NCBI GenBank assembly: GCA_026671195.1
Contig: JAPOHD010000027.1
Span: 124,001 to 188,000 of the forward strand
Reading direction: 5' to 3'
From: Draconibacterium aestuarii
GTDB lineage: Bacteria; Bacteroidota; Bacteroidia; Bacteroidales; Prolixibacteraceae
Length of the DNA: 64,000 nt
The translations under genes and the position numbers were made by a program. Positions within the stretch are counted from its first letter, which is position 1. Each line of letters opens with the position of its first letter. The notes under the pieces were generated by a model. It was given only the letters and a program-made list of their open reading frames with translations, did no database searches and was not told the DNA's origin. This document shows, in pieces, positions 20,310 through 61,715 of the stretch.

Positions 20310-20317
20310 TATTTTTG
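20310..20317 (+). promoter_or_regulatory. Possible -7 promoter box of the giant-protein locus
   Basis: TATTTTTG matches TAnnTTTG exactly and lies 49 bases before the TTG start chosen for giant 1. The region around it is AT-rich with a T-run near the -33 position but no clean TTTG. It supports a start at 20367 rather than at the later ATG at 20436. Confidence 0.4.
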
Positions 20318-20366
20318 AGATTGTAAAAGCATTTTTTATTAATCAATAATATTCAAAAATATTAGT

Positions 20367-23300
20367 TTGTTGGACGCGGCTAAGATTGAATATAATCAAA
20401 CCCTAAAAATAATTATATGCGTTATAATTATTTTTATGAGCAATATGGATGCGATTCCTAAGGAATTTACTCCTGACATTTATTGCTCCCGGGAAGGAAT
20501 GTCTGATCATCTGGAAGGTGGAATTAGCAGGCGTTCTGACTATAATGTGTGTAATTCGGAAACGGGCACTGAACAAAATGCGGGAATTGATTTCCCAAAA
20601 AGTTTACAGGTCCAAACCGATCCGAATTCATGTGTGGCATTTATCGACTCAGCCTTGCAAGTTTACGATCCTAATAATGTGATAGTGAAATTGACCTGGC
20701 AAATGACCGGAGCCACTGACGGTAATTCTCCGGAAGACGGTGTAAATCAGATTGGTGGCTATTCTTTTAATGTGGGAGTAACATTGCTTACCTATACTGT
20801 TGAATCAAATCTTAGCGAAACGAACATAAGTACAATAAGTATAGAAGTTGTTGACAGCGAGGCGCCTCAAATTGTTAGTGCTCCCGGCGATATCGGTGTA
20901 AGTAATGATCCGGGAGAATGTTCTGCACATGTTTATTGGAGTGATCCTGTAGCCCGGGATAATTGTTTGGACTCGGAACAATTGGTGTATACTTCCAATT
21001 ATAAATCAGGGGAAAAATTTCCTGTTGGAGAAACAGTGGTTCGGTACAGTATAACTGATGGTAAGAATAGTACGGAGTTTAGTTTTACTGTTTCGGTTAA
21101 GGATAACGAGGGCCCGGTAGTAAGTGCCCCTCCGGTTGATACATCATATTGCGGAGAGGCAGTTCCTGACGCATTTACAAGCTGGGAGCAGTTTGAGCAG
21201 GCAGGAGGAAGTGCATACGATAATTGTGGGATAAATTATAACAGTTTCAGGTATTTTCAGAACAAAGCCAGCAGTATTTCCTGTCCGTATACCGTAACTC
21301 GTACTTATCTGCTTGAAGATATATACAGGAATGTTACTGAATTTGTGCACGTAATTGAAGTGAGTGCAAATGGAAATTCGGGTGAGTCTGATGTGGATAA
21401 TTTCAGTGGGATAAATCCTGGCTCGGGAGGAAACGCAACTGCGGCTATTTCAGCTAGTATTAATAATGTAACTTGTTTTGGGGGAAGTGATGGAAGTATA
21501 ACAGTGGATACTTCTAGTGTTGCTCAAAAAATAACTAAAATCGAATGGGATAATGGTTCATCAACACTCAATCTTTCGGGGCTGTCAGCCGACATTTATA
21601 CGCTCGAAATTACAGCTGGTGGAAGTGTTAGCTCACAAATATTTGCAGTAACCGAACCCGGCATATTAGATGCGTCGGTTATTAAAAAACAGATTACCTG
21701 CTTTGGTGCCGATGATGGGAAAATCAATGTTTCAGTTCCGACTGGTGGATCAGGAATCTATCAGGTATCGATTAATGGCATTGATTGGTATGATGTAAGT
21801 ATGGCTATGCCGTATGAGTTTACAGAACTAACAGCCGGAACCTATTCTGTTCAACTTCGTGATGCTGTGAACCTGGATTGTTTCAGAGAAATTGCTAAAA
21901 TAGCAATCGCTGATCCTTCTCCTTTAACAATAACAACAAGTGTTACAGAGACTACATGTTCTGGTACAAATGATGGTGATATTACAGTTGCTGTTACGGG
22001 TGGTACACCTCCTTTTCAGTATAGTTCTGATGGAGCTGTATTTCAAGTGTCTGAAGTGTTAACCAGCTTGGCAGTTGGCAGTTATATGGTGACGGTTCGT
22101 GATTCAAATTTATGTTCGATCGAAAAAGAAGTTGTAATAACACAGGCACCTCCTAATTTCAGAATAATAAGTCAACCTCAAGCCCAGGTTGATTGTAGCG
22201 GAGCCACAGTCGAATTTAAGGTAGAGGCCATTAATGCTGTAGGAACATTCCGCTACCAGTGGCAAAAGAAAAGTCCAAACGACAATGATTTTGAGGATAT
22301 TATCTCCGCCAATTCAAATGCATTAAAACTGGACAATATTGGAAGTAACGATGTTGGCCTGGACAGTACGTTTTATCGTGTAATTATTTCCGACGATTGT
22401 TCTTCTGCTGTTTCAGACTCAGCCCTATTGCGTTTAAACGAAATTATAGAGGTAAAGCCTGCACAGGAGCAACTTGAAGTCTGTAATGGAGAAACGGTAA
22501 TTTACGAGGTGGTTACGCGAGGCAATGTTATTCTCTATTTTTGGGAAAAGTCAAATTCAACGAATAATTGGATTCCCATTAGTGATGGGGGCAAATATTC
22601 AGGATCAGGTACTTCTGAATTAACGATATCGGATGTTGGTGCATCGGAAAGTGGTGTTTATCGGGTGCGTGTTGTTTTTGAAACAATTAATACATCCACT
22701 GGCAATAAATCCTGTAATGAAATAAGTCGGGAGGAACGAATACTGGTTGTTGACAATATAAAACCCGAACCAAAATGTCAGAACAAAACCGTTTCGCTCG
22801 GTTGGAGCAGCCCTTTAGTAATTAGTGCTTCCGATATTGATAATGGAAGTACTGATAATTGTGGTATTGCAACTATTTCGCTTTCGCAAACAAATTTTGA
22901 TTGTTCGCATCTTGGAAATAATATAGTTACGCTTACAGTAACCGATACAAATGGTAACGATTCTACATGTACAGCAACGGTTTTAGTGGTAGACAATGTT
23001 TCTCCTTCGTTTACAGTACCCGGTTCAGTAACATTAGATGCAGGTACTTCATGTTCTCCCGATGTAACGCCATCGAAAACCGGAATGATTACCGTTATGT
23101 CTGATAACTGTACGGCAGATCAGGATCTTTTGGTTACCTATGCCGATGGCGCGTCGATTGCAGGTTTGTGTGGCGGGGAGTACAGTATCACCCGTACCTG
23201 GACTGTAAGTGACAAATTGGGGAACAGTACTTCAAAAGACCAGTTGATTACGGTTGTTGACGGAACCAACCCGGTGATGTCGATACCCGAAAACGTTGCC

Positions 23301-26300
23301 CTTCTGTATGGTGATCCGACTGAACCTCAATATACCGGGCAAGCCAGTGTTACCGACAATTGCGACAGTAATCCTGTAGTAAGTTATTCCGATAGTATTT
23401 CATACGAAGTGGGATGTCCTTATACTGTTTTTCGTAAATGGACGGCCACCGATTGGTGTGGCAATTCGTCTTCTGCTTTCCAGCAAATTAGGGTAAGCGA
23501 CACAGAAGCGCCGATTTTAATACTTCCAAATGATACTGCAGTAGCTACTCCCAATGATATTCCGTTGGTTGACACTTCTGTGGCAAATGCGATTGACAAT
23601 TTTGATACAAATCCTACAATAGAGTTTCTGTATGAAGAATTTACCGGTCTGGATGCGAAACCTGGTTTTTGCCCCACTTCGGTTACCCGGTATTTCAGGG
23701 CATCCGACCAATGCGGTAACAGTGTTGTGGGTTCCTACATCATTTATGTAAGCGATGTTTCCGATTGTGCCGAATGTCAGGAAAGTGTACCGTTTTTTTA
23801 CCTGGATTTAACCTATAGTGCCGAGGCTGAAGAAACAATAAAAAATGTTGATCGTCATAAAGCAGGATATTGCTGTTCGGAAGGAAATTCGAGTTGTGTG
23901 GCTTTTAATATTCTTTTTCATCGTGATGTTATTGGTCTTGAAATAACAGTAAACGGGGCTACACCAAAAGGGCAGGAATGGGACGTGGATTGTGAGTCGG
24001 TTGATTTGAATAAGGAATATTTGTGTATTCCTACCGATGAGCAGTTTCATTTATTTACCTTGTGTAAACCGGGGAATAATCTTAACTCTTATACATTTAG
24101 AACCTTAATCGGAGCCTCTGTTCCCGATGATGAGATAACAACCCGGGTGGAATGTGTCGAACAGCTATCGATTTCAGGAATTGCTGATCCTGTGTGGAAC
24201 AGCGTTTATCCCGGTGTTCGCGGAGAGTACAACAGTTACCTCGATCTTTCAGATCCGTATAATCCTGTGTTTTCAGCGCCTCCGGGAGCTCCCGGAGAAA
24301 TTCGTTACGAGGTTGCAGGACCTTTAGTAGAGCCGGTTTGTGGACAAACTGCAGATACTGCCCTGGTAACAATTCTTGTAAAAGAAGCTATCGCAATTGA
24401 TCTTAACATCGAACCCGATTTGATGTGTGAAGATTCGCCGGATACCATTGCGCCCGTTATTTCTCCTGTCGGTTCGTATGAATTTGAATGGTATGTGGGC
24501 AATGATACTACGGGTGTACCTTTTTCAACAGCAGAAACTTTTGTTCCAACTGCCGAAGGAGAATATGTATTGAAAGTAACCGATGCAGATCATGATATTC
24601 CCTGTAGTTCGGAGGTTTATAATTTTGAAATTCTTTTCGATTATACCGGTCCTACAATTCAGGTTCCACCAAATACACTTACAGTACAATGTAACGATGG
24701 CAGTGTAATTACGAGTATTCAGAACTGGCTGAATTCAGCACAGGCAAGTTATACAAACTCGCGTGGAATTTTTGTCGAATTTATTCCGGAGAATGATTTC
24801 GATTTTAATAACCTTGATATGGCGTGTAACGATACGCTGGAGGTGACTTTTTCCGCATTCGATCATTGTTCCAACATGGCTACAAATACGGCTTTAATTG
24901 TTGTTATCGATACAATTGCACCGATAATTTTTCGCGAAGCAGCCGATGCCAGCACACAATGTACGGGTATTGATCCGGATCAGAATGCTGCATATCTGGG
25001 CTGGTTGGCAAATCACGGAGGAGCGGCGGCAAACGATGATTGTGACGCAAACCTGACCTGGATTACTGATACCGATACTTCCTTATGGAGTGGAGATCAG
25101 GTTAACAACCAGATAAGTATAACATTTACGGTTTTTGATGATTGTGGAAATACGGCTCAAACTACGGCTACTTTTTCTATATTCGATACGATTGCACCTG
25201 CAATTAATACCCTGCAGAATATCGTTGAATGTCCGGAATTTGTTCTTCCTGCCGGAAGTACGATGCTCAATATCGATCCGGCAGAAGTGAGTGACGATTG
25301 TTATGCAACCTGTAGTTTTAGTGATTATACCATTCGTTGGCGGATCGATTTTGCCGATAGCACTTCTCTTCCGGCCGGAGGTGGTTACGCTACCGGACAC
25401 ATCTCCGACTTAGGGGTCGATATTTTATTTCCAGCCGACAGTTTAACATTTTTAAATGCTGATCATAAAATTAGCTACTGGATAGAAGACTGTAGTGGCA
25501 ATGTATCGGAAGCACAAATCCGAACCGTCACTGTTTTGCCTCCTCCGGTGGTTGTGAGTCCTGCCGATACGCTTTATTACTGTTATGGCGATACAGTTTC
25601 TGAAATTTTACTTACAGGATATCCGCAGGGTGATGTGGTTTTCGATATTAGTGGTGGAGCTTTACTGGGAATTGCCAACCAAACCGGTGTTTCATCCATC
25701 CCTGCGTTCTGGGCTACAAAACCCGGTTCGGCTATCATTTCTATTACTCCGCGTACGGATGATTGTATCGGAGAAACCGTTGATTTTGTTATTGTAGTTA
25801 AGCCGGTTGTTAATGTATCCGTTTCACCGGCACGACAAACTATCTGTTCAGGAGATTCAACAGATATCAGAATATCAAGTAACACAGCCGGGGCAACTTT
25901 TTCATGGGAAATAAGTTCTGTTACGCCATCAGGAAGTGTTGCCGGAGCATCAGGTGGTGCAGGAAATTACATCCGGCAAGGCCTGGTAAACAACACATCG
26001 TCGCCGGCTGAGGTGGTGTATCGTGTATCGGTTGAAGCCAATGGCTGTCCCGGTATAATGCCCACTCCTGTTACAATTACGGTAAACCCTGTCCCTGAAT
26101 TACTAATTACAGATCCAGATACAATTTGTGAACCGGAAACCATTGATCTAACGGATATTGCTATTACGGCAGGGTCTTCAGCCGGAGCTGATTTTACATA
26201 CTGGGCAGACACGGCTGCCACTGTTTCATTGGCTAATCCCGATGCAATAATTCAAAGCGGAACCTATTATATTATGGCCTCTTTTGGCACAGGATGTACA

Positions 26301-29300
26301 ACTATAAAACCGGTGAATGTTGTAGTGAATCCTGTTCCAGGACTTACCAGTACGCTCACTCCGGATGGAATTTGCAGTAACACACCATTTAGCTATACAC
26401 CAAGCGGAAATCTGCCAGGCACTGTATTTACATGGAGCAGGGCCGCCATTCCCGGAATTAGTAACCCGGCGGAAACCGGTACAGACAATATTGATGAAAT
26501 ATTGGTAAACGAAACTTCAAATCCCATTGAGGTTACCTATATATATACTCTTTATTCTCCCGATGGATGTAACAGTGTGTATGAGGTAAAAGTTATGGTT
26601 ACGCAGTCGCCCTACTTAACAAGCACAAATCCCGATGGTATTTGTAGTGGCGAGGTGCTGAGCTATAATCCAACCAGTAATGTTTCGGGTACTGTTTTTA
26701 ACTGGACAAGAAACGCAGATGCCTATGGAAATGCGGCAGCTTCCGGAACCGGAGATCCCAACGAAATATTGGTGAATCAATCCAATGGTCCGATATCGGT
26801 TATTTATTATTATTCTCTGAGTTCAAATAACTGCAGCAATCCAACTGTATTCCAGGTGATGGTAGTGGTTACACCTTCGCCCGAGGTTACCGTTCGGGCA
26901 TCGGAAGCAGAAATTTGTCCGGGTGAAGCGATAGATCTGTTCTCCTTATCCACCGATTTGCTGAATTCTGCACTTGAAACCGAACTATTAATGGATGACT
27001 TTCATTCCGGGACCGGAAACTGGACAGCATCAGGTTCTCAATATGCATGGAGCTTGCAAGCCGATTCTTCTGTTTATACATCTGAAGAAGTAATGAGTTG
27101 GATTCCTTTCAGAACGAAAACTGTTCAGAATATTTTTCATTCCAATGACAGTACCCCGTTTTTACTGGCAAATCATCATGAATCCGTATTTGGATTAACG
27201 AATACCACATCCTATCTAACCAGTAAAATTTTCGATACCAAGGGGTACACCGAAATAAAACTAAGCTTTTGGCATCATTATAAACGAGGCACCAGTTCTG
27301 TAGAAAAAGCTGTTGTTGAGTATTCAACAGATGGAACGAACTGGAACATGGTAGGAACGGAAGAGTATAGTTATACAAGGGGTGAAGCTGATAGTTTTGA
27401 ATATGTTGAAACTACAGATCTTCCGGTGGGAGAATCTACTGTACAAATTCGTTTTGCTTATACAACTATTGGGATAGCTCAAAAATTCTGGTGGGCAATC
27501 GACAATATCCAGGTAACGGGAGTTCCTCAGGTGCAAAGAGAAATCCAATGGACTTCCACCCCCGCAGGATTTACTTCTACAGAGGGCAACCCAACCGGTG
27601 TTTATCCAACAGAAACCACAAGTTATATTGCTACTTACACCGATCCGCTTACAAATTGTTCCGGATCGGATACGGTGACGGTAATTGTTCGCGAATTACC
27701 GGATGTGCAAATTTATGCCGATTATTGTTCTGACCCCGGTTATATTATCTTAACCGCCACCGAAGGAGCAAGTTATTTGTGGAGTACCGGAGAAACCACA
27801 CAGATAATCAAAGTAGATGTTGCAGATATTTACAGCGTAAAGGTGATTGATGAGTATGGATGTGAAAATGTGGCTTATACAGGTGTTTCGACCGAACTGG
27901 TTATAAACGGAGATTTTGAACAGGGAAATGTTGATTTTAGTACCGGGTACCAATACGTGGCAGATGATGCTCTCAGAAACAATGAGCTAAATCCCGAGGG
28001 GTACTACTCGGTGGGAACAAATGCTCAGCATTTTCATAGTAATTTTTGGGGATCTGATCATACCAACGGCTCTGGAAATTATATGATCGTGAATGGTTGG
28101 GGATCGGATCAGGTTGTTTGGGAACAGGAAATTGACATTCTCCCAAACACTGAATTCTATTTCTCTGCCTGGGCAATGAGTTTAAACAGTGTCGCTCCAT
28201 TCGTCAAACTACGTTTCGAAATTAACGGTGTTCAAATTGGAACAACAGCCAATCTTCCTGTTGGTCAAAACAACAACAGAAATCCGTGGACAAATCGCTT
28301 TTATGGAAACTGGAACTCGGGAAATGCAACAAAAGCAACAGTTAGAATCATTAATCTGGAACCGGCGCTGGGAGGTAATGATTTTGGCCTTGACGATATT
28401 TCTTTTGGAACGCTGGAGCCTTTGCCTTCCGAAATAGAAGCATCTGGATTAAACACAACTGTTTGTGAAGGTGATTCCGTCCAATTACTTTTGGATGTCC
28501 AAAAAGGGAAAGAGCCTTTTACGTATTCATGGACCGGACCAAACGGATATACTTCGAATGAGAAAGAACCGGTTATATATAATACCGATCCCGCGTTTAC
28601 CGGGGACTATATTGTAACCGTAACCGATGGATATGGTTGCGGACCGATATACGATACAGTGCAAATTGTTGTGAACGAGGCAGCCATTGTTGATGCCGGA
28701 AGCGATCAGCTAATTTGTGCCTCTGAGAATGAAGTTTCTCTCAACGGTTCGTATGGGGGATCAACCACTTCGGTAACCTGGTCGGGTGGAACCGGAAGTT
28801 TCCTTTCAGCTGCGGATCCAACTACAACTTATACGTTTAGTGATACGGATATTGCGGCCGGTGGAGTTACTCTGGTACTTACTTCGGATGATCCTCCTGG
28901 AGTTTGCGGGCCCGTAAGCGATACGGTGAATATCAGTATTTATCCGCTTGTTGAGGTAGTGGTTGATACTGCCGTTCATCCACTGTGTCCCCGGGATAAG
29001 AATGGTTATATTACTGTTCATGGAGAAGGAGGAGTGGCGCCTTACAGTTATTTCTGGGATAGTACCCCGAAGCAAACATCAGCAACGGCAGGAGGGCTTC
29101 GTGCCGGCACTTATAAGGTGACTGTTACCGATGCAAACGGATGTTGGGATACTTTGTCGGTAACGCTTTCCGATCCTCCCGAATTGGTAGTGAGTGACAC
29201 GGTGCAGGTTACTGAGCCTTCATGTTACAACGGAAGCGATGGTACGGCTACAGTAATCGTAACCAGTGGAAACAATCCAACATTTTGGTGGCACACAGAG

Positions 29301-47095: not shown

Positions 47096-47158
47096 AGATG
47101 AGAAACGAGATATACATAGAAAGAAGCATGAAGAAAGTGGTCAGCGATCCGTTTTCTT

Positions 47159-47913
47159 CTGTCATCTCGACGACTTTAGAGGAGAGATCTGTAACAACAG
47201 AGTCAAGCGGCAACAGATTCCTCCTTCGTTCCTCACTCGGAATGACAGGTGAAAACTTGCCTGTTTCGCAAACCCACTTCTCGTCTGTCATCTCTACATC
47301 ATACTGTCATCTCGATCCGTCAGTTGACGGAGAGAGATCTGTAACAACACAGCCAACCGGCAACAGATTCCTCCTTCGTTCCTCACTCGGAATGACAGAG
47401 AAGTTGGGTGCTCAGTGTTCAGTATTCAGTGATCAGTTGGCATACCCTGTCATCCTGAGCGTAGCCGAAGGATCTGTAACAACAGAGCTAACCGGCAACA
47501 GATTCCTCCTTCGTTCCTCACTCGGAATGACAGAGAAGTTGGGTGCTCAGTGTTCAGTGTTCAGTGATCAGTTGGCATACCCTGTCATCCTGAGCGTAGC
47601 CGAAGGATCTGTAACAGCAGAGCCAACCGGCAACAGATTCCTCCTTCGTTCCTCACTCGGAATGACAGGTGAAAACTTGCCGGTTCAGCAAACCCACTTC
47701 TCGTCTGTCATCTCTACATCATACTGTCATCTCGATCCGTCAGTTGACGGAGAGAGATCTGTAACAACAGAGCCAAGCGGCAACAGATTCCTCCTTCGTT
47801 CCTCACTCGGAATGACAGGCGAAAACTTGGCGGTTTCGCAAACTCACTTCTCGTCTGTCATCCTGAGCGTAGCCGAAGGATCTGTAACAACAGAGCTAAC
47901 CGGCAACAGATTC
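47159..47913. repeat. Array of six REP-like palindromic elements
   Basis: Elements lie at about 47159-47248, 47304-47398, 47447-47533, 47582-47668, 47724-47818 and a 3'-truncated one at 47855-47913. Each opens with CTGTCATC and GATCTGTAAC and closes with CAGATTCCTCC and CTCGGAATGACAG, so its ends are inverted repeats. The third and fourth are a 135-base tandem duplication, and 47249-47398 is repeated at 47669-47818. A long frame through the array encodes only the repeats and is not treated as a gene. Confidence 0.85.
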
Positions 47914-48746
47914 CCCGCTACCGCGCGATTCCATCGCGTGGATGTTCCGGCAATCCGGAGCGAAGTCGAAGCATCGACCCTGCAAACAGCTGATAGTAAC
48001 ATATTAACAAAAAAATATAATAACTCACCCCCGATGAGGGTACGGAGTAAACATAAGATTTCCCATCTTTCTTCGTTGAAGTCAGCGGGAATGAGAGAAC
48101 CAATAAAAAATCAAATCTTTCAGATTCTTGCCTTGGGCAGGAATAGTCTCCCCCCGGGGAGAGAAGGGTCTGGGACAGTAGCTAACAACTTTAAAAATGT
48201 GTATGCCTATGAGCAATGACTAAAAGAAAAAATCTTTCGGTCCGTTAACAGGCGGACAGAAAGTATGGTTCTGTAGGGGCCTTTGTAACAGGAGGCCTGC
48301 AGCCAAAGGGTAAAGTTGGTGTTTATTTCTCTACAACAACATGTATTTTGACGATACACCACAAATGCCGCTTTTCCCTGGGGCTGAACCATTCAATAGG
48401 AAAATCAGGGAGTTCGTCGGTCAACTGACAGACGATACCCCTTGATTCTGATCCGATTCGTCAGCTGACGGATGCAACCAACCCTCTCTAAAAGCAGAGA
48501 GGTGAAATTGAAATACTAAAAAGAATTGTGTAACCGATTGACAAATAACCTTAACAAAAACAAAATGTCAATCAACAAACAAAAAAGAACGTTCTGATTT
48601 TATTGAAAGACGATTTTGCTACGGGCACCAACCGTTCTCCCCTGGAAAGGGAGATGACCGTTAACCGACGGACAGAGGGCTGATAACCCCAGGGCAGAAA
48701 TCCAATCCAATAAAAAAGGAACACATTAACTTTAAAATTAAATGTA
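47914..48746. other. Non-coding spacer upstream of the 371-residue protein
   Basis: No gene is seen. The stretch holds several short dyad symmetries: CGTCAGCTGACG at 48459-48470, a CCTCTCT/AGAGAGG hairpin at 48483-48502, and related GTC-rich inverted repeats near 48410-48435 and 48630-48680. The last 80 bases before ATG 48747 are AT-rich and probably hold the promoter (TAACTTTA, one mismatch from the -7 consensus). Confidence 0.5.
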
Positions 48747-49862
48747 ATGAAAAAGCAAATTTTAATTCTAACGTTTTTTATGGCGGCTTTATTAGTCGGA
48801 AACAATGCCTTTGGGCAGCTATCTGATGGTTCTCCTGATCTTGACTATTTGGATGCAGTACCTACTTACTGTACACCTGCTCTTCCTATTGACTGCGGAA
48901 ATGGAACTGATGCCTTAGCTCCATTGCCTGGTGTTTCTTATCCTTACACAATTACCTCCAGTTCGGTAGGTACTCTTCATTGGTTTGTAACCGATGATGC
49001 TTCTATTATAAGCGCTCAGGGAACTATTGCTGCAGGTATAGAACTTGCTGATGGATCAAGTCCATATGTCTTAACAGCAGATGCTGCATATAATGATCCT
49101 GCTAATACTTCAGCAACGGTTAACATCACCTGGAAATCATTTGATGGTTTGGCAAATAATGTAATATTGGTTGTATACAATGTTGATGATGTAAATTGTA
49201 CAGATAATATGGAGGTTTTCCGTATTATTCCTCAGTACAATTTTACTCTTGATATTGCTAGTATAGCTGATGATGGTGTTAATGGAGGTGATGTAGCTGC
49301 TGTTGAAGATTGTGTAAATCCAATTCAGAGTGCATCTTATGATGGTACTGCTAGAATGTTAACAGTAGATTATGGTACAGATTACGTTTTCTTCGCAGTT
49401 AATGCTGCCAACTGGCAGACTTCATGGATGCCTGATAATTTCACCGCTACAACTAATGGTACAAGTACTGTTACTGTAACTGGATGGGCTTACCCTGCTG
49501 ATGCTGCAACTACCGGCACCTGGAATACAGTTGGAACAGACCCAGTGTTGGCAACTGGATATGCAAGTGCTGTTAACGGCTTTGTTGCAGAAGGATGTAT
49601 TATTGTCAGGGTTCAGGTTGACCATGGTTCTACAACTGAAAATCTTACCGCTGAAACTATTAATTTGACGGTTAATGGTGAAATGATCAATGCACAAACT
49701 ACATCATATGATGGTACTTATCCTGATTTAGAAGATGGAGGAGGTGTTGCTTGTCCTAATGATCTCACAAGTGACAACGCGGATTACGTAATTACTCCGA
49801 GACCTGATGTTGATGAGAGTACTCCTACTCCATTTGAAGATAAAACTCCGAATGGTGATTAA
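48747..49862 (+). CDS. Secreted 371-residue protein in the giant locus, function unknown
   Basis: It begins with a clear Sec signal peptide (MKKQILILTFFMAALLVGNNAFGQ). The mature protein is Asp/Thr-rich, of Ig- or PKD-like beta type, with few lysines and five or six cysteines. A CTDNMEVFRI motif in the middle resembles CTDNIEMYVM in the 239-residue protein at 52133. Near the end it has a YVITPRPDVDES strand like the PRP ends of giants 1 and 2, followed by an acidic tail. No type A or B sorting domain is visible. It sits alone between repeat-filled spacers and downstream of giant 2. I infer a surface-associated partner of the giants, possibly a subunit, but homology gives no function. Confidence 0.82.
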   Translation: MKKQILILTFFMAALLVGNNAFGQLSDGSPDLDYLDAVPTYCTPALPIDCGNGTDALAPLPGVSYPYTITSSSVGTLHWFVTDDASIISAQGTIAAGIELADGSSPYVLTADAAYNDPANTSATVNITWKSFDGLANNVILVVYNVDDVNCTDNMEVFRIIPQYNFTLDIASIADDGVNGGDVAAVEDCVNPIQSASYDGTARMLTVDYGTDYVFFAVNAANWQTSWMPDNFTATTNGTSTVTVTGWAYPADAATTGTWNTVGTDPVLATGYASAVNGFVAEGCIIVRVQVDHGSTTENLTAETINLTVNGEMINAQTTSYDGTYPDLEDGGGVACPNDLTSDNADYVITPRPDVDESTPTPFEDKTPNGD

Positions 49863-50271: not shown

Positions 50272-50290
50272 TTTTGAAGGAGAAGAGAAG

Positions 50291-52132: not shown

Positions 52133-52852
52133 ATGAACAACAGGTTCGCACATATCATCACAACTGTTCTACTGGGAATCATCCTGGTAGCACTGACCGT
52201 GGAAAAATCCGCGGCCCAGATTACAGTGCATGAATGCGATACCATGACCTTTAGCGTAACCAGCCGGCCAAATATCCCGGAAACGCATTTTGTATGGGGT
52301 ATTTATACCGCTTCCGACCAACCAAAAGATGTACTCGATCCTGCCGGAACACTCGATCCCGCCCTGTATTTTGTTGATGGTATGTATGCCAGTGGCGAAG
52401 GCAGAACGGTGAAGGTAACCGGACTGGCACCGGGCAAATACTATGTACGTATTCATGTGTGGGACGAAGTAAGTTGTACCGATAACATTGAAATGTATGT
52501 AATGACCGTTTTGGAATCGGAACTGGTAATGGAAATGTATGCCGATTCGGTGTGTATTGGCGAACCTACCAATGTGTATATCCGCTTTACCGGCCGTGGA
52601 CCTTACGAAATTACCTATACAGTTGGCGATGAGCTGACACCGAGTGTGGTCAACCTGAATGGTACGGAAGTAGATCCGGAAATTACCATCCCGATAAACC
52701 AGCCATTACCGGTGGGAGAAACTACGTTTTGGGTGATCAAGGTGGAAGACAATTGTAAGGCCTACGAATATACAGGCGATGAACGACCGAGCACGGGAAT
52801 TGTGATTTATCCAAAACCCACGCAGTCGAGGATTTACCTAAAAGACGATTAG
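52133..52852 (+). CDS. Secreted 239-residue protein in the giant locus, function unknown
   Basis: ATG 52133 begins a signal peptide (hydrophobic stretch IITTVLLGIILVALTVEKSAAQ). The mature part looks like two Ig/PKD-type beta domains: the first includes FVWGIYTA and CTDNIEMYVM, the second begins DSVCIGEPTNVYIRFTGRGP. It ends IVIYPKPTQSRIYLKDD, a final strand similar in position and form to the PRP ends of giants 1 and 2 and of the 371-residue protein. No recognised T9SS sorting domain. It precedes giant 3 by about 500 bases. As with the 371-residue protein, a role as a surface partner or subunit of the giants is inference from location and shape. Confidence 0.82.
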   Translation: MNNRFAHIITTVLLGIILVALTVEKSAAQITVHECDTMTFSVTSRPNIPETHFVWGIYTASDQPKDVLDPAGTLDPALYFVDGMYASGEGRTVKVTGLAPGKYYVRIHVWDEVSCTDNIEMYVMTVLESELVMEMYADSVCIGEPTNVYIRFTGRGPYEITYTVGDELTPSVVNLNGTEVDPEITIPINQPLPVGETTFWVIKVEDNCKAYEYTGDERPSTGIVIYPKPTQSRIYLKDD

Positions 52853-52934
52853 CGTATGGAAGAGTTATATTGTAAATTAGAAGAAGAAAGTTGGAAGCGC
52901 GATGCACGAAGCGTGAAGAAAGCCGCAGTCATGG

Positions 52935-53019: not shown

Positions 53020-53322
53020 TTTTGAACGAGGAGAGAAGAAGAGAGGGAGAGATGAGGAGACTTGGAGATGAGGAGAAGAAGAGACTGGGAGACGGAGAGA
53101 GCGGGTGAAATAAACATAGCGCCTTTGCGCCTTAGCGGTTAAAAACAAAATATGAAAGGAACATGAAATTTAATCTGCGATTTTTCACAAACAAGCATGA
53201 TTAAATTTCATCGAGAGTTCCATACGTTGCAATTGAAAACAAAAAATTATAAACGGATGAAACGAACATGTAAAATATTTGCACCCAAAAGGATGATTAA
53301 AATACATGTGAGTTACATACTA

Positions 53323-53330
53323 TACTTTTG
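53323..53330 (+). promoter_or_regulatory. Possible -7 promoter box of giant 3
   Basis: TACTTTTG fits TAnnTTTG and lies 21 bases before ATG 53352. No clear -33 TTTG is present. It also shows why a TTG start at 53328 is unlikely: that codon lies inside the box. Confidence 0.4.
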
Positions 53331-53351
53331 AAAATAAACAATTTTGATAGT

Positions 53352-56300
53352 ATGAAAAAGTTGATGTACATAGTATTCTTCCTTAGTTTGGCGGCAAATC
53401 TGCTGGCCCAGGAAACCTATGTCATCGATTCGGTATGTCTTGGAGCCACCAGAACCTACCGTTTAAACGGGGAAAAAGGTTCAACCTACGAATGGAAGAT
53501 TAACGATTCCGACGGTGTTTTATATGCTTCACCGGCTTACGTCGATTTCCGTCTGGACGACGATCCCGCCCCGGGGGATACCATTTGGGGCAGCGAAATC
53601 GATCAGCTTTGGGATGTGGTGGGCGAATACGATATGGTTGTACTGCACTGGTCGGTTCATGGTTGCGATACCGTAGAAATGGGGCACATAAAAGTATTCC
53701 CGCTTCCGGAAGCTGAAGCAGGTGACGATCAGGTGATCTGTTCGCTCGACGATATTGTGGTAAGCGGCGACACCGCCCGGAATTACAGCAGCTTCTACTG
53801 GGAAACCACCGGCGACGGTACTTTTAGTTCTGAGTATGCATTACACCCCACCTATTACCTGGGAGCGAACGACAGCCTTAACGGTAGCATTACGCTGGTG
53901 CTTACTGCCTTTGGACTGGCCGACAACGAAACCTGTATTCCTGCAGTCGATTCGGTTACCTTCGAGTTCAGCAAACCCGATATCAGCTTCTCTGTAAAAG
54001 AATTACTCTGTTACAACGACCGCGATGCCATTATCCGCGGAAATATTATTGGAGGTGCTCCGCCCTTCGTCTTTGCATGGACCGGCCCCGATGGCTATAC
54101 TTCTTCTGCTTCCGACAGCATTACCGACCTTGGCGCCGGGTGGTATAAACTCACCGTAACCGATGCCAACTCGTGTTTCGACATCGATTCGGTAGAAATT
54201 GTAAATCCGCCTGAACTCACCATTGATGATATTGCTGTTATCGAAATTGATTGTTATGGTTATTCCACCGGAGCAATAACTGTTTTGGCTTCAGGAGGCA
54301 CCGGTAGCCTTACCTACCAGTGGCGAAGTGCGCTGGGTACAACCTACAACGGAAACGCAATTACCGACTTACCTGCCGATACTTACTACCTTGTGGTTTA
54401 CGACGAGAACCTTTGTACAGTGCGCGATACGATTGTGCTTGAAGAACCCGAGTTGTTGGTGGTGAATGTTACAGCCGCCGATACCATTTTGTGTAAAGGC
54501 GACGAGGTGACCCTGCACGGCAATCCTTTGGGCGGAACCGGCGAACTCGATCACCGGTGGATAGGAGACGGTTCCATTTACCTCGATTACAGGTACGACA
54601 GTGTTGCGGTGTTTAAGAACAATGCACCCGTAGGTACCCACAATCTGGTTTATATCATTCGCGATGAGGCCGGTTGTGAGGCTTCCGACAGTATTGTATT
54701 ACATGTTTATCCGCCTTCGGAAAGTTACGAATCGATTGAGGTTTGTGCCGGGGCAGATCCATTCCCATGGAACAACAGAACCATTTTGAGTGATGCCGAC
54801 AGAATCTACCTCGATACCCTGGTGGGGGCCAACCAGTACGGTTGCGACTCGATGCTTACGCTCGATGTTAAAGTGCTCTTCCCTGAATTTTACGATACTA
54901 CCATTTACGTTTGTGAAAACCTGGAACCTTACCAACCTTATGGAAACATTACGATATATCCGGATCACGACAGCATTTACCTTGATACCTTGTATTATTC
55001 CGCTTCGAGATGCGACTCGCTGCTGATCACCATAAATGTATTTACTAAGCCGGTAACCTATGCCGATCTGGATACTACCCTATGTTCAGGAGCTGATACA
55101 TTTAAGTGGAACAACCGCTGGATACAGACCGATTTCAGCCAGGTTTACCTCGATACACTCGAAAATATCTATGGGTGCGACTCGTTGTTAACCTACGATG
55201 TAACCATTATTCCGCCGGATACTTTCTATGTGGATACAACATTCTGTCAGGATGAACCTGAATTTGTATGGAACGGCATTACCATTTTAACACAGCACGA
55301 CAGCACCTACGAAGCCACGCTGCAAAACCAGTATGGTTGCGATTCCCTGGTAAATCTGAATGTGCAACTGCTTCCGGTAACCGATACAACTATCGATACG
55401 CTGTTGTGTTACGATAATCCGCCTTATTCCTGGAACAACCTTGTAATTTTTGCACAACACGACAGCACCTACCTCGATACGCTGGTGAACCAGTGGGGTT
55501 GCGATTCGCTGCTTACCCTCAACGTTGAAGTGATGTACCCGGATACGGTGAACATCGATACTACCTTGTGTGAAGGTGTTCCGCCTTTTGCCTGGGGCGT
55601 AAATACGATTTATCTGGTTGATACCTATACCGACAGTTTATATACCGATATCCTTCAAAACCAGTTTGGTTGCGATTCCATTGTTAATCTCGATGTACAG
55701 ATCCTTCGTCCTGCGTATATCCTGGATACGATAGAAGTCTGTGAAAATGTACCGGTTTTTGTATGGCATTCGATGGATATACTTACCGACAGGGACAGCA
55801 TTTATGCCGATACACTGTATTATGCTGCCGGCTGCGACTCCTTACGTCTGCAGTTAACGCTTATCTCGCATCCGGTTTCCGATACAATTATCGATACCGT
55901 ATTGTGTGAGGGAAGTCCGGAGTTTGCCTGGAACAGCCATACCATTTCAACATTTACCGACAGTACTTATCTGGACACACTGTCCAATGTATGGGGCTGT
56001 GATTCAACGCTTGCTCTGAATGTTCAGGTGGTTCCGGCAGTTAAAGATACTTTCCCGGCAACTGTCTGCTATGGAGATCCGATAGCAGACTGGTACGGAC
56101 AAACGATTTCATCGATTATCGACAGTACTTATATCCAGTTATTACCCGATCCGTCGGGTTGCGATACGCTGCTGTACTATGAAGTTACCGTGTTGCCTGT
56201 GACATATGAAGTTTTGGATACCACACTGTGTTACGGACTTGGTGACTTCAACTGGAACAACCGCCTGATTTCGGGTAGTGTGAGTGGTACGTATCTCGAT

Positions 56301-59300
56301 ACCCTGCCAAACAGCTTTGGTTGCGATTCGTTACTAACGTATAATGTAATCATACTTCCACCTGATACTACCCTGGTATACGATACACTCTGTGTTGGCG
56401 ATCAGGAGTACGACTGGAACGGGTATACAGTGTCTACAACCGCAGAAGATGTTTATGAAGCTAGCCTGCAAACTGATTTGGGGTGTGATTCTATCGTGAT
56501 TTTAAACGTTACTTTAATTAACGGAACTACTACCTACGATACGGTTTATGCCTGTGAAGAATATACCTGGACCGAAGGAACCGGTTTGACCTATACCGTT
56601 TCGGATGATTATCTGTTTACACTTGACGCCGGAGCGGCTTGTGCCGACAGTGCCTGGTTACATCTGGTGATCAGTAATCCGGTCATTGAAGCCGGTTCGG
56701 TTGACGTACTTTGTAATGGCGACAGCACCGGATTCATCGATCTGACGGTTAGCGGCGGGATCGGGCAGGTAAGCTTCTTATGGAATACGGGCGATACTAC
56801 GCAAAACCTGAGTGACCTTCCGGCAGGAACGTATTCCGTAACGGTTACCGATTCGCTGGGATGTACAAAAACCCTGGATGTTGAGATTATTCAACCTACA
56901 GAGATCCTGATTACTCTTGATGTTTTAACAGATGTACTGGTTGCCGGAGAATCAACAGGTAGCATTGAAGTGAGCGTTGGAGGTGGTACACCGGGTGCTG
57001 GTTATTCTTATCAGTGGACCGATGGATCGGGTAATATTGTTGGCACGGATGAAGATCTGTTTGATGTACCGGCCGGAACGTATACCCTGGCCGTGACTGA
57101 TGCAAATGAATGTAAAACCGCACAAACCTATCCAATTGAAGAACCGGTGATAACGCCTTGTCTGGAAGATACGCTGCTCACCTGTTTCGAGGATTTAGGG
57201 TCTTATCCGCTGGTAACATCGCTGGAAGATTACGTGACCCTGCTGAAACCTGGTCAGGATATTGATCCGGTCTGCGGAATCGATACAGCAAGCTTCGCCT
57301 CCGATTTCTCAGAAGTAGTGGGAAGTATATATTGTTATGAAGAACTTCGTTATTACACTTTACTGGATGATTGCAGCGATACACTCTTCCATTGTATACA
57401 ACGCGTTATTGTAAACGATACCGAAGCACCAACAATGACCTGCCCGCCAACCATTGTCGTTACCAACGATGTGGTGCCTCCTGCTTATGCCGATACGGCT
57501 GAATTCCGCGCAGACGGAGGTTTGTTCGCCGACAATTGCGGAGTGGTAAGCTTCCGTCAGGTGGGAACAGATGTTTCGGATGGTGGTTCCGATCCGGAGG
57601 TGATAACACGGGTTTACGAGGTAACTGATTATTGTGGTAACGTGGCTACCTGTACGCAGAAGATCGAAGTATATTTGACGGCAGAATTTACTATTGAATG
57701 TGAAGGATTGCCGGATATTTCTTACGAATGTAAAGCTGAATTGCCTAAATATAATCTGGCGCAATTCAGGGCTGACGGAGGTTATGCCTATAGTTCTCCA
57801 TTCGATATTGATTCCTTCTGGGTAAGCACTGTTAGCAATGGCCAGACTTGTCCGGAGACTATAACTCGCACATATTACATCAGAAACGAAAATGGAGATA
57901 TTGAAGGATGTACAAAAACTTATGTAATCTATGATGAAACACCACCAACTTTAATTTTACCGGATAAACATATTTATTGTACAGAAAAATTACCTTCCTC
58001 ATATTATAGTCCCGCCAATGTAATTAATGGTCATGTGGGTATTCCGGCCACTGAATTAATGTGGGAAAATTGTGGCCTTAGTAACATCGAGGGAGTTGTT
58101 CCGGCCAAACAGCCGGATATTGAACCCGGATGTCCGACTATAATTACGCGATACTATATAATATGGGATAAATGTCAGAATCGGAATGAGGCAACTGAAA
58201 CAATTTATGTATACGATACCATTCCTCCGGTTGTGGCTGGCAATTTCCCATACGAGATTTCAGACGAATGTAATATTCCTGATCCATACACCGATGCAAG
58301 TCTGTATGTTTCCGACGATTGTGGCCCGATTGATATTGCATACCGTGATTCATTGGGTGGTGTGGATGAACCGGGTGTGGTATATCGTATTTACAGGTTT
58401 AGTGATCCTTGTAATTGGGTTGAGGTAATTCAGAAAATTACCATTGAGCTTACAAATACGCCGGTGTTCGACGACATCGATCCGATTTGTCAGTTTGGTG
58501 CGGCTCCTGTTTTGCCAACTACTTCTGCAAATGGTATTACTGGTTACTGGTTGCCGGATACGGTAGCTACAGATGTTGCGGGCGACTTTGTATTTATCTT
58601 CTATCCGGATTCCGGTCAGTGTGCCGGTCCGGTAAGTATGGAGATTGAAGTAACGCCTGCTCTGGAACTTTCTGAGACGCACGTTGATCAGGGCTACAAC
58701 CCGAATCCTGTGGGCGAAATTTATATAACGGTTGCTGAAGGTACGGCTCCTTATTCCTTTAGCTGGAGCAATGGCGCAACTACGCAAAACCTGAGCGGTT
58801 TGTATGCCGGCGATTATACGGTATATGTTACAGACGCCATTGGTTGCGAAGACAGCTTAACGGTGACCATCACCTCCGACGATCCGGAATTCAGTTGTCC
58901 GCCCGATACTTCATTCGAATGTCCCGATGTTACTCAATATCCTGCTTTTGTTTCCATTACCGGATTCATAGCCGGAGGAGGATATTATAACCCTGTAGAT
59001 ATTGTTGGCTCGCTGTACAGCTTCGATGATACCATTACAAGCGGATATTGTTTGAGCCTGGAGCGTACCTATGTACTACAGGATATTTATGGCAGAATAG
59101 ATTCGTGTACGCAGATTATAGATTTCTACGATATTGTGCCACCGGTTATAACGGCTCCTGAAAGCGATACTGCCGAATGTTTGTCAAGCGTTATTCCAAA
59201 CCTTACCACATTTAGTGAATTCCTGGCTGTTGGTGGAGACGCTTATGATAATTGTACGCTCGATATCGCCTCGTTTACTGTTGTAACAAGGGAGCCTGTC

Positions 59301-61715
59301 AGGTCACTGGGTCAAACCGAAGTGACTTATGTTTTCAGCATTCAGGATATTTGTGGAAATATAGCGTTTGATTCAACTACTTATGTAAGTACCGACTTTG
59401 AAGCTCCGGAAGCGGTTTGTAACAGCATTACGGTTTACCTTGATGAGAACGGCAACTATATACTTACTGAAATTGACATGCTGACCATCGCAGAAGGATC
59501 AAACGACAATTGTACCGCTCCTGAAGATCTGACTGTTGAGGTTGATGCCGTTGAGTTTACCTGTGAAGATGTGGAAGAAGGCAAAAAGGTAAATGTGGTA
59601 GTAACCGACGAAGCCGGTAATTCTTCCGTTTGTATGGCCGAAATTCTTGTGGTGGATATGGTGCCTCCAACTGCTTTATGTAAGGATATAACCGTTTACC
59701 TCGATGAAACAGGACAGGTTACTGTTACCGGTGCAATGATTGATAACGGCTCTTTCGATAATTGTAAGCTGGATACGGTTATGGCAATACCGGCACAATA
59801 TGATTGTTATGATGTTGGCGATAATCTGATCAAATTAATTGCCGTTGATGTATATGGTTTACGCGATACGTGTGAAGCAACTGTTACTGTAATCGATCCG
59901 ATTGATCCGGTTATTGTTTGTAAACCTTTGCAAACCATTCAGCTGGATGAGTACGGTAAGTATGCGCTTCGCTGGGATATGGTAACCGACAGTGTTTCGG
60001 ATGAATGTGGTATTGATACGGTATTGCTGGATGACTATGAGTTGGACTGTGAAAATATTGGTACAACAATTATTACTGCCACTGCTTACGATGTAAACGG
60101 CAATTCCAGTTCTTGCCAGGCCCAGTTCGAAGTGTTTGGAAATATTCCTCCAAATGTAGTGAACGACTCGGCTGTTACAAGCGTTGATGTACCTGTTGAT
60201 ATAAATGTTTTAGCCAACGATTACGACCTGAAAACAAATATCAATCGGGCTACTTTGGGTGTAGTAATCAATCCGCATCATGGTTCAGTGGTTGTCGATA
60301 ATATTACTGGAATCGTGACCTATACGCCTGATCCGGGCTATGACGGACCGGATGTTTTTAAGTATACAATTTGCGACGATGCTATTCCTTGTGAAGAAAT
60401 GTGTGGAGAGGCTCTTGTATTTATTACGGTTCGTCCGGCCAACAGGCCACCGGAAGCTGTGGATGATTATTATACTTTATTGTGTGGTACACTTACCGGA
60501 AATGTATTGGATAACGATTCAGATATTGATGACGATGAGATTGCAGCACACCCGATTCCGCTGATAGGCCCAACAAACGGGACTGTAATACTGAATACAG
60601 ATGGAAGTTTCGAATACGAACCATTCCTCGATTTCTATGGAATAGATAGTTTCCAGTACGAAATTCACGACGTGGGCGTAACGCCAACTTATTACGATAC
60701 TGCATGGGTTTACATTACCCGTATAGCCGACTACGATTGCGATGGTGTACCTGATGTGATAGATATTGACTGGGACAATGACGGTATTCTGAACTGGGAT
60801 GAAGGAGACGGCCTGATCGATTCCGACGGCGATGGAATAGCAGATGCCTACGATATTGATTCCGATAACGATGGAATTCCGGATAATATAGAGTGGCAGA
60901 AAGAAGACGGTACTTATTTGCCGCCAACAGGCAGAGATTCAGATGGAAACGGCTGGGACGATGCCTACGATATCTGGGATACCTCGAACGGTATACTTGG
61001 TGTGTACTATGAGGCTGTTGATACTGATGAAGACGGAGTTCCGGATTACCTGGATATTGATTCCGACAACGACGGTGTATTTGATTACATTGAAGGACAC
61101 GATGCAAACTTCGACGGTATTGCAGACGTATTCAGAACGTACATGGATTCTGACCTGGATGGTTTGGATGATGCATACGATACGCAGGAAGGTTGGAGTT
61201 TGCCATTTAACTCAATCAACAGTAATGCTCCGTTGCAGGATTTCGATGGCGATGATATAAGAGACTGGCGTGATCCGAATGACGACGGTGATGATTTTAC
61301 CACAAGGAATGAAGATTACAACCAGAATAATGATTGGAGTGATGATGACCTTGATTTAGACGGCTATCCTGATTATTTGGATACCGAAATTAATTGCGAA
61401 TTGTTTATTCCTGAAGGATTCTCGCCAAACGACGACGGTGTTCATGATTTCTTCCAGATTCTGTGTATCTATCCGCGTTATCCGAATGCGAAAATGATGA
61501 TTTTTAACCGTAACGGACAAAAGTTATTCGAGAAAGAAAATTACGGTAACTACGATGTGTGGGGCTGGAACGATGCCTGGTGGTGGGGAACGTCTGAAAA
61601 CAGGCTTACCATTGGTCGATCGGGAGGTTTGCCCGCCGGAAACTACATTTATGTACTTATATTAAATGATGGACTGGGAACGGTTAAGAATGGTACGGTA
61701 ATGTTGGCGTACTAA
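53352..61715 (+). CDS. Giant 3: secreted repeat protein with type B (gliding-motility-associated) T9SS sorting domain
   Basis: ATG 53352 is chosen because it opens a signal peptide (MKKLMYIVFFLSLAANLLAQ); a longer TTG frame starts at 53328. The protein has about 2787 residues. Order: PKD-like and SprB-type domains (to about residue 455); eleven tandem GCDSL repeats of 54-57 residues (about 460-1055); SprB-type repeats again; HYR-like domains with DNCGV and DYCGN motifs; a cadherin-like or bacterial Ig domain (DINVLANDYDL, about 2280-2450); a thrombospondin type 3 calcium-binding region rich in DSDGDG; and the CHU_C-type C-terminal domain (FIPEGFSPNDDGVHDFFQI). This is the architecture of SprB-like adhesins exported by T9SS with a PorP/SprF protein. 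It is the only one of the three giants here with a recognised sorting domain, and it has no PorP/SprF gene of its own next to it. Confidence 0.93.
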   Translation: MKKLMYIVFFLSLAANLLAQETYVIDSVCLGATRTYRLNGEKGSTYEWKINDSDGVLYASPAYVDFRLDDDPAPGDTIWGSEIDQLWDVVGEYDMVVLHWSVHGCDTVEMGHIKVFPLPEAEAGDDQVICSLDDIVVSGDTARNYSSFYWETTGDGTFSSEYALHPTYYLGANDSLNGSITLVLTAFGLADNETCIPAVDSVTFEFSKPDISFSVKELLCYNDRDAIIRGNIIGGAPPFVFAWTGPDGYTSSASDSITDLGAGWYKLTVTDANSCFDIDSVEIVNPPELTIDDIAVIEIDCYGYSTGAITVLASGGTGSLTYQWRSALGTTYNGNAITDLPADTYYLVVYDENLCTVRDTIVLEEPELLVVNVTAADTILCKGDEVTLHGNPLGGTGELDHRWIGDGSIYLDYRYDSVAVFKNNAPVGTHNLVYIIRDEAGCEASDSIVLHVYPPSESYESIEVCAGADPFPWNNRTILSDADRIYLDTLVGANQYGCDSMLTLDVKVLFPEFYDTTIYVCENLEPYQPYGNITIYPDHDSIYLDTLYYSASRCDSLLITINVFTKPVTYADLDTTLCSGADTFKWNNRWIQTDFSQVYLDTLENIYGCDSLLTYDVTIIPPDTFYVDTTFCQDEPEFVWNGITILTQHDSTYEATLQNQYGCDSLVNLNVQLLPVTDTTIDTLLCYDNPPYSWNNLVIFAQHDSTYLDTLVNQWGCDSLLTLNVEVMYPDTVNIDTTLCEGVPPFAWGVNTIYLVDTYTDSLYTDILQNQFGCDSIVNLDVQILRPAYILDTIEVCENVPVFVWHSMDILTDRDSIYADTLYYAAGCDSLRLQLTLISHPVSDTIIDTVLCEGSPEFAWNSHTISTFTDSTYLDTLSNVWGCDSTLALNVQVVPAVKDTFPATVCYGDPIADWYGQTISSIIDSTYIQLLPDPSGCDTLLYYEVTVLPVTYEVLDTTLCYGLGDFNWNNRLISGSVSGTYLDTLPNSFGCDSLLTYNVIILPPDTTLVYDTLCVGDQEYDWNGYTVSTTAEDVYEASLQTDLGCDSIVILNVTLINGTTTYDTVYACEEYTWTEGTGLTYTVSDDYLFTLDAGAACADSAWLHLVISNPVIEAGSVDVLCNGDSTGFIDLTVSGGIGQVSFLWNTGDTTQNLSDLPAGTYSVTVTDSLGCTKTLDVEIIQPTEILITLDVLTDVLVAGESTGSIEVSVGGGTPGAGYSYQWTDGSGNIVGTDEDLFDVPAGTYTLAVTDANECKTAQTYPIEEPVITPCLEDTLLTCFEDLGSYPLVTSLEDYVTLLKPGQDIDPVCGIDTASFASDFSEVVGSIYCYEELRYYTLLDDCSDTLFHCIQRVIVNDTEAPTMTCPPTIVVTNDVVPPAYADTAEFRADGGLFADNCGVVSFRQVGTDVSDGGSDPEVITRVYEVTDYCGNVATCTQKIEVYLTAEFTIECEGLPDISYECKAELPKYNLAQFRADGGYAYSSPFDIDSFWVSTVSNGQTCPETITRTYYIRNENGDIEGCTKTYVIYDETPPTLILPDKHIYCTEKLPSSYYSPANVINGHVGIPATELMWENCGLSNIEGVVPAKQPDIEPGCPTIITRYYIIWDKCQNRNEATETIYVYDTIPPVVAGNFPYEISDECNIPDPYTDASLYVSDDCGPIDIAYRDSLGGVDEPGVVYRIYRFSDPCNWVEVIQKITIELTNTPVFDDIDPICQFGAAPVLPTTSANGITGYWLPDTVATDVAGDFVFIFYPDSGQCAGPVSMEIEVTPALELSETHVDQGYNPNPVGEIYITVAEGTAPYSFSWSNGATTQNLSGLYAGDYTVYVTDAIGCEDSLTVTITSDDPEFSCPPDTSFECPDVTQYPAFVSITGFIAGGGYYNPVDIVGSLYSFDDTITSGYCLSLERTYVLQDIYGRIDSCTQIIDFYDIVPPVITAPESDTAECLSSVIPNLTTFSEFLAVGGDAYDNCTLDIASFTVVTREPVRSLGQTEVTYVFSIQDICGNIAFDSTTYVSTDFEAPEAVCNSITVYLDENGNYILTEIDMLTIAEGSNDNCTAPEDLTVEVDAVEFTCEDVEEGKKVNVVVTDEAGNSSVCMAEILVVDMVPPTALCKDITVYLDETGQVTVTGAMIDNGSFDNCKLDTVMAIPAQYDCYDVGDNLIKLIAVDVYGLRDTCEATVTVIDPIDPVIVCKPLQTIQLDEYGKYALRWDMVTDSVSDECGIDTVLLDDYELDCENIGTTIITATAYDVNGNSSSCQAQFEVFGNIPPNVVNDSAVTSVDVPVDINVLANDYDLKTNINRATLGVVINPHHGSVVVDNITGIVTYTPDPGYDGPDVFKYTICDDAIPCEEMCGEALVFITVRPANRPPEAVDDYYTLLCGTLTGNVLDNDSDIDDDEIAAHPIPLIGPTNGTVILNTDGSFEYEPFLDFYGIDSFQYEIHDVGVTPTYYDTAWVYITRIADYDCDGVPDVIDIDWDNDGILNWDEGDGLIDSDGDGIADAYDIDSDNDGIPDNIEWQKEDGTYLPPTGRDSDGNGWDDAYDIWDTSNGILGVYYEAVDTDEDGVPDYLDIDSDNDGVFDYIEGHDANFDGIADVFRTYMDSDLDGLDDAYDTQEGWSLPFNSINSNAPLQDFDGDDIRDWRDPNDDGDDFTTRNEDYNQNNDWSDDDLDLDGYPDYLDTEINCELFIPEGFSPNDDGVHDFFQILCIYPRYPNAKMMIFNRNGQKLFEKENYGNYDVWGWNDAWWWGTSENRLTIGRSGGLPAGNYIYVLILNDGLGTVKNGTVMLAY
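54727..56520 (+). repeat. Eleven diverged GCDSL-type repeats in giant 3
   Basis: The cysteine codon of each GCDS motif lies at 54844, 55011, 55176, 55338, 55500, 55671, 55833, 55998, 56160, 56322 and 56484, a spacing of 162-171 bases. Each unit has C, then (F/Y)xWN, YLDTLxNxxGCDSLLTLNV and a proline-rich link. DNA identity is low, so the array is old, unlike the 210-base array in giant 2. Confidence 0.9.
60733..61395 (+). other. Thrombospondin type 3-like calcium-binding region of giant 3
   Basis: Repeated DxDxDGxxDxxD motifs (DCDGVPDVIDIDWDNDGI, DSDGDGIADAYDIDSDNDGI, DTDEDGVPDYLDIDSDNDGV) form a strongly acidic calcium-binding stalk directly before the sorting domain, as in many Bacteroidota surface proteins. 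Confidence 0.85.
61396..61712 (+). other. Type B T9SS C-terminal sorting domain of giant 3
   Basis: The CELFIPEGFSPNDDGVHDFF start, the MMIFNRNGQKLFEKENYG core and the GNYIYVLILNDG end match the gliding-motility-associated C-terminal domain (CHU_C). In Flavobacterium this type requires an SprF-like partner for export. Confidence 0.93.

Follow-up and report, generated by a model that had tools for sequence, protein, structure and literature searches.

We describe a seven-gene locus of Draconibacterium aestuarii (GenBank assembly GCA_026671195.1) within a 64,000-nucleotide stretch of contig JAPOHD010000027.1 (positions 124,001 to 188,000; hereafter the window, whose first letter is position 1). 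The locus encodes three giant repeat proteins (G1, G2 and G3), two PorP/SprF family proteins (P1 and P2) and two smaller secreted proteins (S1 and S2). We tentatively favor, with a confidence just short of even, the explanation that these genes specify a single composite surface adhesin that would be made as separate polypeptides and chained tail-to-head on one PorP-held anchor. What can be read directly from the sequences is the order of the genes, conserved tails at C termini, related heads at N termini, the missing known C-terminal domains (CTDs) of the type IX secretion system (T9SS) in four of the secreted proteins, and the missing CxC motif in P1 and P2. Tails on all subunits except the last, and heads on all except the first, fit the pattern expected of a chain with a single anchor. 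Type B substrates of the T9SS with PorP carriers are already known; what appears to be new here is their CTD-less, tail-bearing partners, for which no earlier account was found in the literature searched, few subscription papers included.

The proposed anchor is G3 (53352..61715; 2787 residues counted from the ATG at 53352, in an open frame of 2795 codons at 53328-61715). Among the locus proteins, a CHU_C domain was found by Pfam at the C terminus of G3 only (PF13585; 61407..61703, 57 bits vs. a cut-off of 27), in agreement with the original prediction, which assigned a type B domain to giant 3 only; the NCBIfam type B model TIGR04131 scores 28.5 bits here, below its cut-off of 35. Judged by this C-terminal domain and by the PorP/SprF carrier in the locus, G3 is a T9SS type B substrate. 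No type A or type B CTD (PF13585/TIGR04131, TIGR04183) was detected at the C termini of G1, G2, S1 and S2; TIGR04183 reaches only 10.4 bits in G2, at an internal position (residues 1443-1473). The giants consist of HYR, SprB and PKD-type repeats, that is, HYR/SprB/PKD-like repeats in G1 (20367..30527, 3386 residues) and HYR and SprB repeats in G2 (33863..47095, 4410 residues). Both S1 (48747..49862, 371 residues) and S2 (52133..52852, 239 residues) start with a signal sequence, as judged by eye; S1 has zero Pfam matches, and the sole match of S2 is a PKD domain below cut-off. P1 (30662..31651, 329 residues) and P2 (32844..33743, 299 residues, with the real start perhaps further upstream) match PF11751 (PorP_SprF) with 201.6 and 217.4 bits (cut-off 22.3), and P1 scores 209.6 bits against TIGR03519 (cut-off 90.55). 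All seven genes are uninterrupted frames on the + strand and, together with the Pfam results, they bear out the gene content as first described: three giants, two PorP/SprF proteins and two signal-peptide proteins on one strand.

The CTD-less proteins end in conserved tails. For the giants, the tail is part of a C-terminal PRP domain (29991..30524 in G1 and 46610..47092 in G2, where it is conserved up to the stop codon and ends in LTITPRPQIIKQN at 47054-47092). Alignment of 26 giant C termini (30 loci examined; L028, L031, L032 and L033 omitted, with matches short of the C terminus) revealed 23 invariant columns, including those of P-R-P and of a K placed four residues further along. The stop codon lies 0-3 residues beyond the match in 25 of the 26 and 17 residues beyond it in G1, whose tail motif LVIKPRP (30438-30458) is followed by the stop 22 residues further. 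The tail of S1, ...ITPRPxI...PFExK (YVITPRPDV...PFEDK from 49785 in the window), has RP near the end in 119 of the 120 homologues listed (out of 176, window included), and R352 and P353 are invariant across 67 aligned homologues. S2 ends in ...IVIYPKPxxSxIYLK (IVIYPKPTQSRIYLKDD from 52799), with [RK]P present in 106 of the 120 homologues listed (out of 121, window included). The structure model of S1 (mean predicted local distance difference test, pLDDT, 90.3) is almost all strands, the last long strand (344-350) leading into the tail motif; no close solved structural relative of this model was found.

The heads are found at the other end of S1, S2 and G3, which start with related domains (48828-49250, 52214-52516 and 53403-53717, respectively), followed in S1 and S2 by a second domain. 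When six head groups were compared by profile, half of them drawn from this locus and half from a second operon type described below, 7 of the 15 pairs reached a probability of 90-99%, and these seven connect all six groups; the remaining eight range from 67% downward, with S1 vs. G3 at <1%. No pairing of a head with the N termini of the giants was among the best 22 pairs, and all such pairings are therefore at 1.2% or less. In comparable loci elsewhere, 8/8 fourth or anchor genes have an N-terminal head (best E between 9e-25 and 1.3e-7), and six of these were shown to encode CHU_C; the figures are 0/12 for stand-alone type B proteins and 0/2 for CHU_C-bearing ones in the window's own genome. 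These 12 controls derive from 16 type B genes (L197-L211) after omission of four that are cut at the N terminus (L198, L199, L200 and L207); stand-alone status was judged by eye, and the cut own-genome genes on C12, C8 and C17 were left uncounted. Five giants were included alongside the fourth or anchor genes and the 12 controls, of which three inform on the N terminus, since those of G257 and G155 start at a piece edge.

The gene order is conserved as well, among genomes of the genus and also in different families of the same order. We searched 61 genomes (the window's own, 36 that carry the same genus label and 24 belonging to other families of the order). Matches to the last 300 residues of G2 were obtained in 25 of them, and matches to S1 and to S2 in 19 each (the S2 match in G041 being marginal, E 7e-4). 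Under the genus label, S1 and S2 share one set of 18 genomes, window's included, all of which also have a giant with a PRP end, as does G005, whose contig stops ~3 kb past its PorP. A single contig carries PRP giant, S1 and S2 in this order in 17 of the 18 genomes (in G017 they are spread over two contigs), and a G3 homologue follows S2 in 17/17 relatives fetched, with only its start visible in G002 and two overlapping frames in G008. In G033, whose contigs break in the locus, a close PorP (83%) and the end of a G3 were found without S1, S2 or PRP matches. More broadly, the PRP domain occurs in 10 of 295 sampled genomes of the order, window's included. Among the nine other PRP loci, a giant end, S1, S2 and a further gene stand in order in G041, G257, G303, G214, G155 and G320, the contigs of G286 and G194 end within S2 or after S1, and G051 has a giant, S1 and then a 388-residue protein that combines an S2-like head with CHU_C; this fusion lacks the S2 tail, which fits the chain pattern. 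G303 also has a second, short locus with a PRP protein, S1 and a 230-residue CHU_C protein. By Pfam, CHU_C is encoded by the last gene in G041, G257, G155, G320, G051 and the short G303 locus. Draconibacterium, Maribellus and Mariniphaga records contain homologues of the G2 end, and homologues of S1 were additionally identified in Lentimicrobium, Mangrovibacterium and Sunxiuqinia; in a phylum-wide sample of 395 genomes, the S1 model at E 1e-8 matched 0/394 other genomes, the window's own being the sole match. Hence, the order that the original prediction proposed to look for elsewhere does recur, and its conservation supports the view that the giants, the small proteins and the type B giant constitute one multi-gene surface adhesin locus.

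A different picture emerged for the carriers, which had been thought to serve giants 1 and 2, one each. P1 and P2 share 77.6% identity. Among the 61 genomes, 26 relatives have a single PorP at least 64% identical to P2, and the window's genome alone has two; one PorP was seen in each of the loci read, be it with a single PRP giant (G034, G004) or with a pair of them (G012, G013, G029). Since the close PorP is single in each relative, whatever the number of giants, P1 and P2 are best read as a recent pair. Further, the PorP gene immediately follows the type B gene in G155 and G320 (families f119 and f100). On these two observations we rejected the assignment of one PorP to each giant, and they make it most likely that the PorP of the locus serves G3. 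P1 and P2 themselves lie upstream of G3, not in the usual spot directly downstream, where the next gene encodes a pyridoxal-phosphate (PLP) enzyme; orphan type B substrates with distant carriers exist (PMC12618676). No cysteine was found in the last 50 residues of P1 and P2, which end at the last strand (...YLRSRYF and ...YLRARYF, respectively) without a C-terminal CxC, nor in those of the eight PorP proteins checked in the same genome (10 PorP matches exist). In SprF, the gliding carrier, the C-terminal CxC is required to bond GldK and for movement (PMC12635249), whereas Fjoh_3952 is a statically anchored type B substrate (PMC12618676). By analogy, a static anchor like the latter fits P1 and P2 better than a moving adhesin.

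A related organization was observed in a second operon type, a compact run of genes for CTD-less secreted proteins, a type B protein and PorP that was found in eight genomes (G034, G007, G006, G013, G008, G012, G019 and the window's own). Most of its intergenic gaps measure -1 to ~50 bases (starts were set by a crude rule, and single gaps of 137 and 588 are possibly wrong). Tails resembling ...P-x-[TVIS]-x-x-[IF] were present in the last 24 residues of 22 of the 24 CTD-less subunits (e.g., NPLPDTGEIIPD, AIPNTSEIRAN, ARPATSGIGSN and VPTIGTFQ); the two others are the third subunit of the window's own genome, where a comparable motif lies 28 residues deeper in the sequence, and the second subunit of G019. 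The own-genome copy of this operon is located at C13:257000-276900 (L196). By eye, no tail-bearing neighbours of complete type B genes were seen in 11 other-family loci (four further loci, outside the 11, have cut type B genes). Searching from the head side, 10 listed places match from model position 10 or lower, four of them new. G160 has a cut-off S2 with a tail upstream, and G242 has a tail-bearing gene, a gene with head and tail, and a gene with head and CHU_C, consecutively; both arrangements fit, and are in line with, a tail-to-head chain.

Taken at face value, these features suggest the following mechanism. G3 would be the membrane-proximal anchor, carried over the outer membrane by the T9SS via its type B domain and remaining bound to the PorP/SprF barrel, P1 or P2, and the CTD-less S2, S1 and giants G2/G1 would be stacked on it tail-to-head. 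At the end of a subunit, the last immunoglobulin (Ig) strand would be followed by a P-[RK]-P linker and then by a short hydrophobic stretch, which would dock on the N-terminal head of the next subunit (G2 to S1, S1 to S2, and S2 to G3); the resulting array would be static rather than moved along the gliding track. We infer the docking, the chain order, the static anchoring and the exit of the CTD-less subunits from the periplasm. In its boldest form, the proposal is that a single type B signal serves a non-covalent chain, with docking taking place in the periplasm and the T9SS passing an array of up to ~11,000 residues as a unit, such that the CTD of the last subunit would pull the array and PorP would hold it; we regard this extension as a good deal more doubtful than the composite adhesin itself and unlikely on present evidence.

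Several observations weigh against the chained adhesin. Fourteen of the 120 S2 homologues listed have no basic residue in the tail, eight of them reading P-I-P (two of the 14 have cut or unrelated ends, and the other 12 retain P-x-P with I, N, M or L in the middle). The S2 and G3 heads alone compare weakly (13.9%), reaching 63.9% when signal peptides and the next domain are included. The structure model of the PRP domain was poor and unusable (pLDDT 54), and the output for S1 is silent on what its tail touches. The fourth gene of G214 and G303 exceeds the fetched piece, and CHU_C was not seen in it. Nor is the locus in the window a compact operon, as its long gaps are full of repeats. In G266 and G056 (family f21; L248 and L249), head-bearing proteins end in tails (AKPLTSKIFHY and AKPVTSPIEHY; KPxTSxIxHY at the stop) within a shared context of TPR, formyltransferase and Gate genes, and no CHU_C was found in the scanned neighbours; a tail thus need not have an anchor beside it, and a strict tail-then-anchor rule fails. 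Finally, the anchor heads of other families are most like the G3 head, so the shared pattern of tails and heads may come from common descent of the whole locus.

The main alternative to the chained adhesin is that a hitherto unrecognized, short signal for T9SS sorting or anchoring resides in the tail (in the giants, in the entire PRP domain), with G1, G2, S1 and S2 being exported separately, through the PorP of the locus or another carrier, and meeting outside the cell. We consider this unlikely but still a serious contender. In these secreted proteins, which otherwise lack a CTD, nothing conserved lies closer to the C terminus than the tail, located at the stop codon or close to it; the tails of G266 and G056, with no anchor among the scanned neighbours, favour this reading, and type C CTDs show that additional signals exist (PMC10202324). 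However, a sorting signal leaves unexplained the heads that accompany the tails (8/8 vs. 0/14), the tails are much shorter than type A or B domains, and the neighbour of the PorP gene in G155 and G320 is the type B gene rather than that of the PRP giant.

It is also conceivable, with a probability that we put clearly lower, that the proteins are independent, co-located adhesins that do not assemble together, their tails and heads being just the usual ends of PKD/Ig-like domains. Consistent with this, Ig-type domains within the giants also end in a hydrophobic strand and a P-x-P linker (105 cases in 10 frames), the heads are similar to PKD-like domains (PF19408 matches the head of one head-bearing protein, E 2.3e-4, below cut-off), and the head models match internal domains of some stand-alone type B proteins. 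Yet the middle residue of the internal linkers is basic in only 4/105 cases, vs. 9/9 tails in the same scan and the near-invariant RP/[RK]P of the tails of homologues. The scan gave no tail for G3, which ends in CHU_C, or for two G029 frames, which stop at a frame change and at a piece edge, respectively. The tails thus look like more than a domain border, which weakens the reading of them as ordinary linkers. Independent adhesins would also not be expected to keep a fixed order across families, to have S1 and S2 in the identical 18 same-genus genomes, or to differ from the 14 stand-alone type B proteins in bearing N-terminal heads. Least probable is a gliding-motility adhesin system like sprCDBF of Flavobacterium johnsoniae, in which S1 and S2 would take the place of SprC and SprD, for while the SprB repeats, the PorP/SprF partner, the T9SS energy-chain genes, a GldJ-like gene (367 bits, below the cut-off of 458) and the fact that SprB is likewise a type B substrate (PMC12635249) speak for it, the CxC of SprF is missing from P1 and P2, which stop at their last strand, and the S1 model has no match in any other genome of the phylum-wide sample.

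The likeness to the F. johnsoniae sprC-sprD-sprB-sprF operon is that a giant repeat adhesin, a PorP-family carrier and extra genes occur together; SprF ends in CxC for track attachment and P1 and P2 do not. The idea of a strand-linked chain of subunits is borrowed from the type V (FimA/Mfa1) pili of Bacteroidales, in which Ig-like subunits are linked through their end strands. Those pili have a lipoprotein anchor, whereas the anchor here would be a T9SS type B protein, and S1 and S2 have neither a fimbrillin Pfam match (E 0.01, sequence only) nor, by eye, a lipobox. With the pairs SprB-SprF, Fjoh_3952-Fjoh_3951 and PG1035-PorP, the locus shares a CHU_C protein (G3) and a PorP/SprF barrel, and static anchoring of G3 would match Fjoh_3952 or PG1035 (PMC12618676, PMC9143113). 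In such type B adhesin/PorP pairs, at least in the literature examined, each substrate has its own CTD; here, there are four extra secreted proteins without a known CTD and with tails and heads.

We did not use genome G031 as a fused ancestor proving that G2 and G3 were once one gene. In this genome (L127-L130, C1:2079000-2158999), PorP is followed by ~23,100 codons with a G2-like start and a G3-like CHU_C end, a coding stretch that is interrupted by frame changes where near-identical repeats form an array and that would be remarkably long if real. No S1 or PRP match was found there, and the S2 model is at noise level (best domain E 0.012). Because the flanks are unlike those of the window and the S1, PRP and S2 matches are missing, the stretch is not taken as proof of a G2-G3 fusion.

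As to the surroundings, the left flank of the locus is an M19 dipeptidase gene, and the right flank, the Cys/Met-metabolism PLP enzyme gene (61822..63192, - strand), is conserved, being present in 16/16 same-genus pieces from S2 onwards (L109-L124). The gap between G2 and S1 (47096..48746) consists mostly of dispersed repeats. More generally, the gaps at 30527-33862 and 47096-53327 hold many such repeats (TGTCATCCCGAAGG...AGAGATCTGT...GGAATGACA units, CTCTGTG units and a 211-bp tandem pair), which give rise to false open reading frames; the frames at 47098-48219, 50765-51442 and 51555-51887 lie in this repeat DNA, have zero Pfam matches and were not counted as genes. Within G2, positions 36602-38053 contain 6.9 copies of a 210-bp SprB tandem repeat (91% match), a likely site of copy-number change. 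The T9SS genes of the same genome include porP-gldK-gldL-gldM-gldN and a second gldK, and its GldJ-like gene is the one already mentioned; the two GldK paralogues, both above the TIGR03525 cut-off, are encoded before GldL and after GldN (C13:206000-222000, L178).

In conclusion, giants without a known CTD are tied by gene order, tails and heads to one type B anchor, which would point to either a new sorting signal or piggyback export, while T9SS substrates otherwise bear their own C-terminal signal in the literature examined. Either reading, if true, would alter the prediction of Bacteroidota secretomes, because the named relatives of S1 and S2 are mostly annotated as hypothetical proteins.

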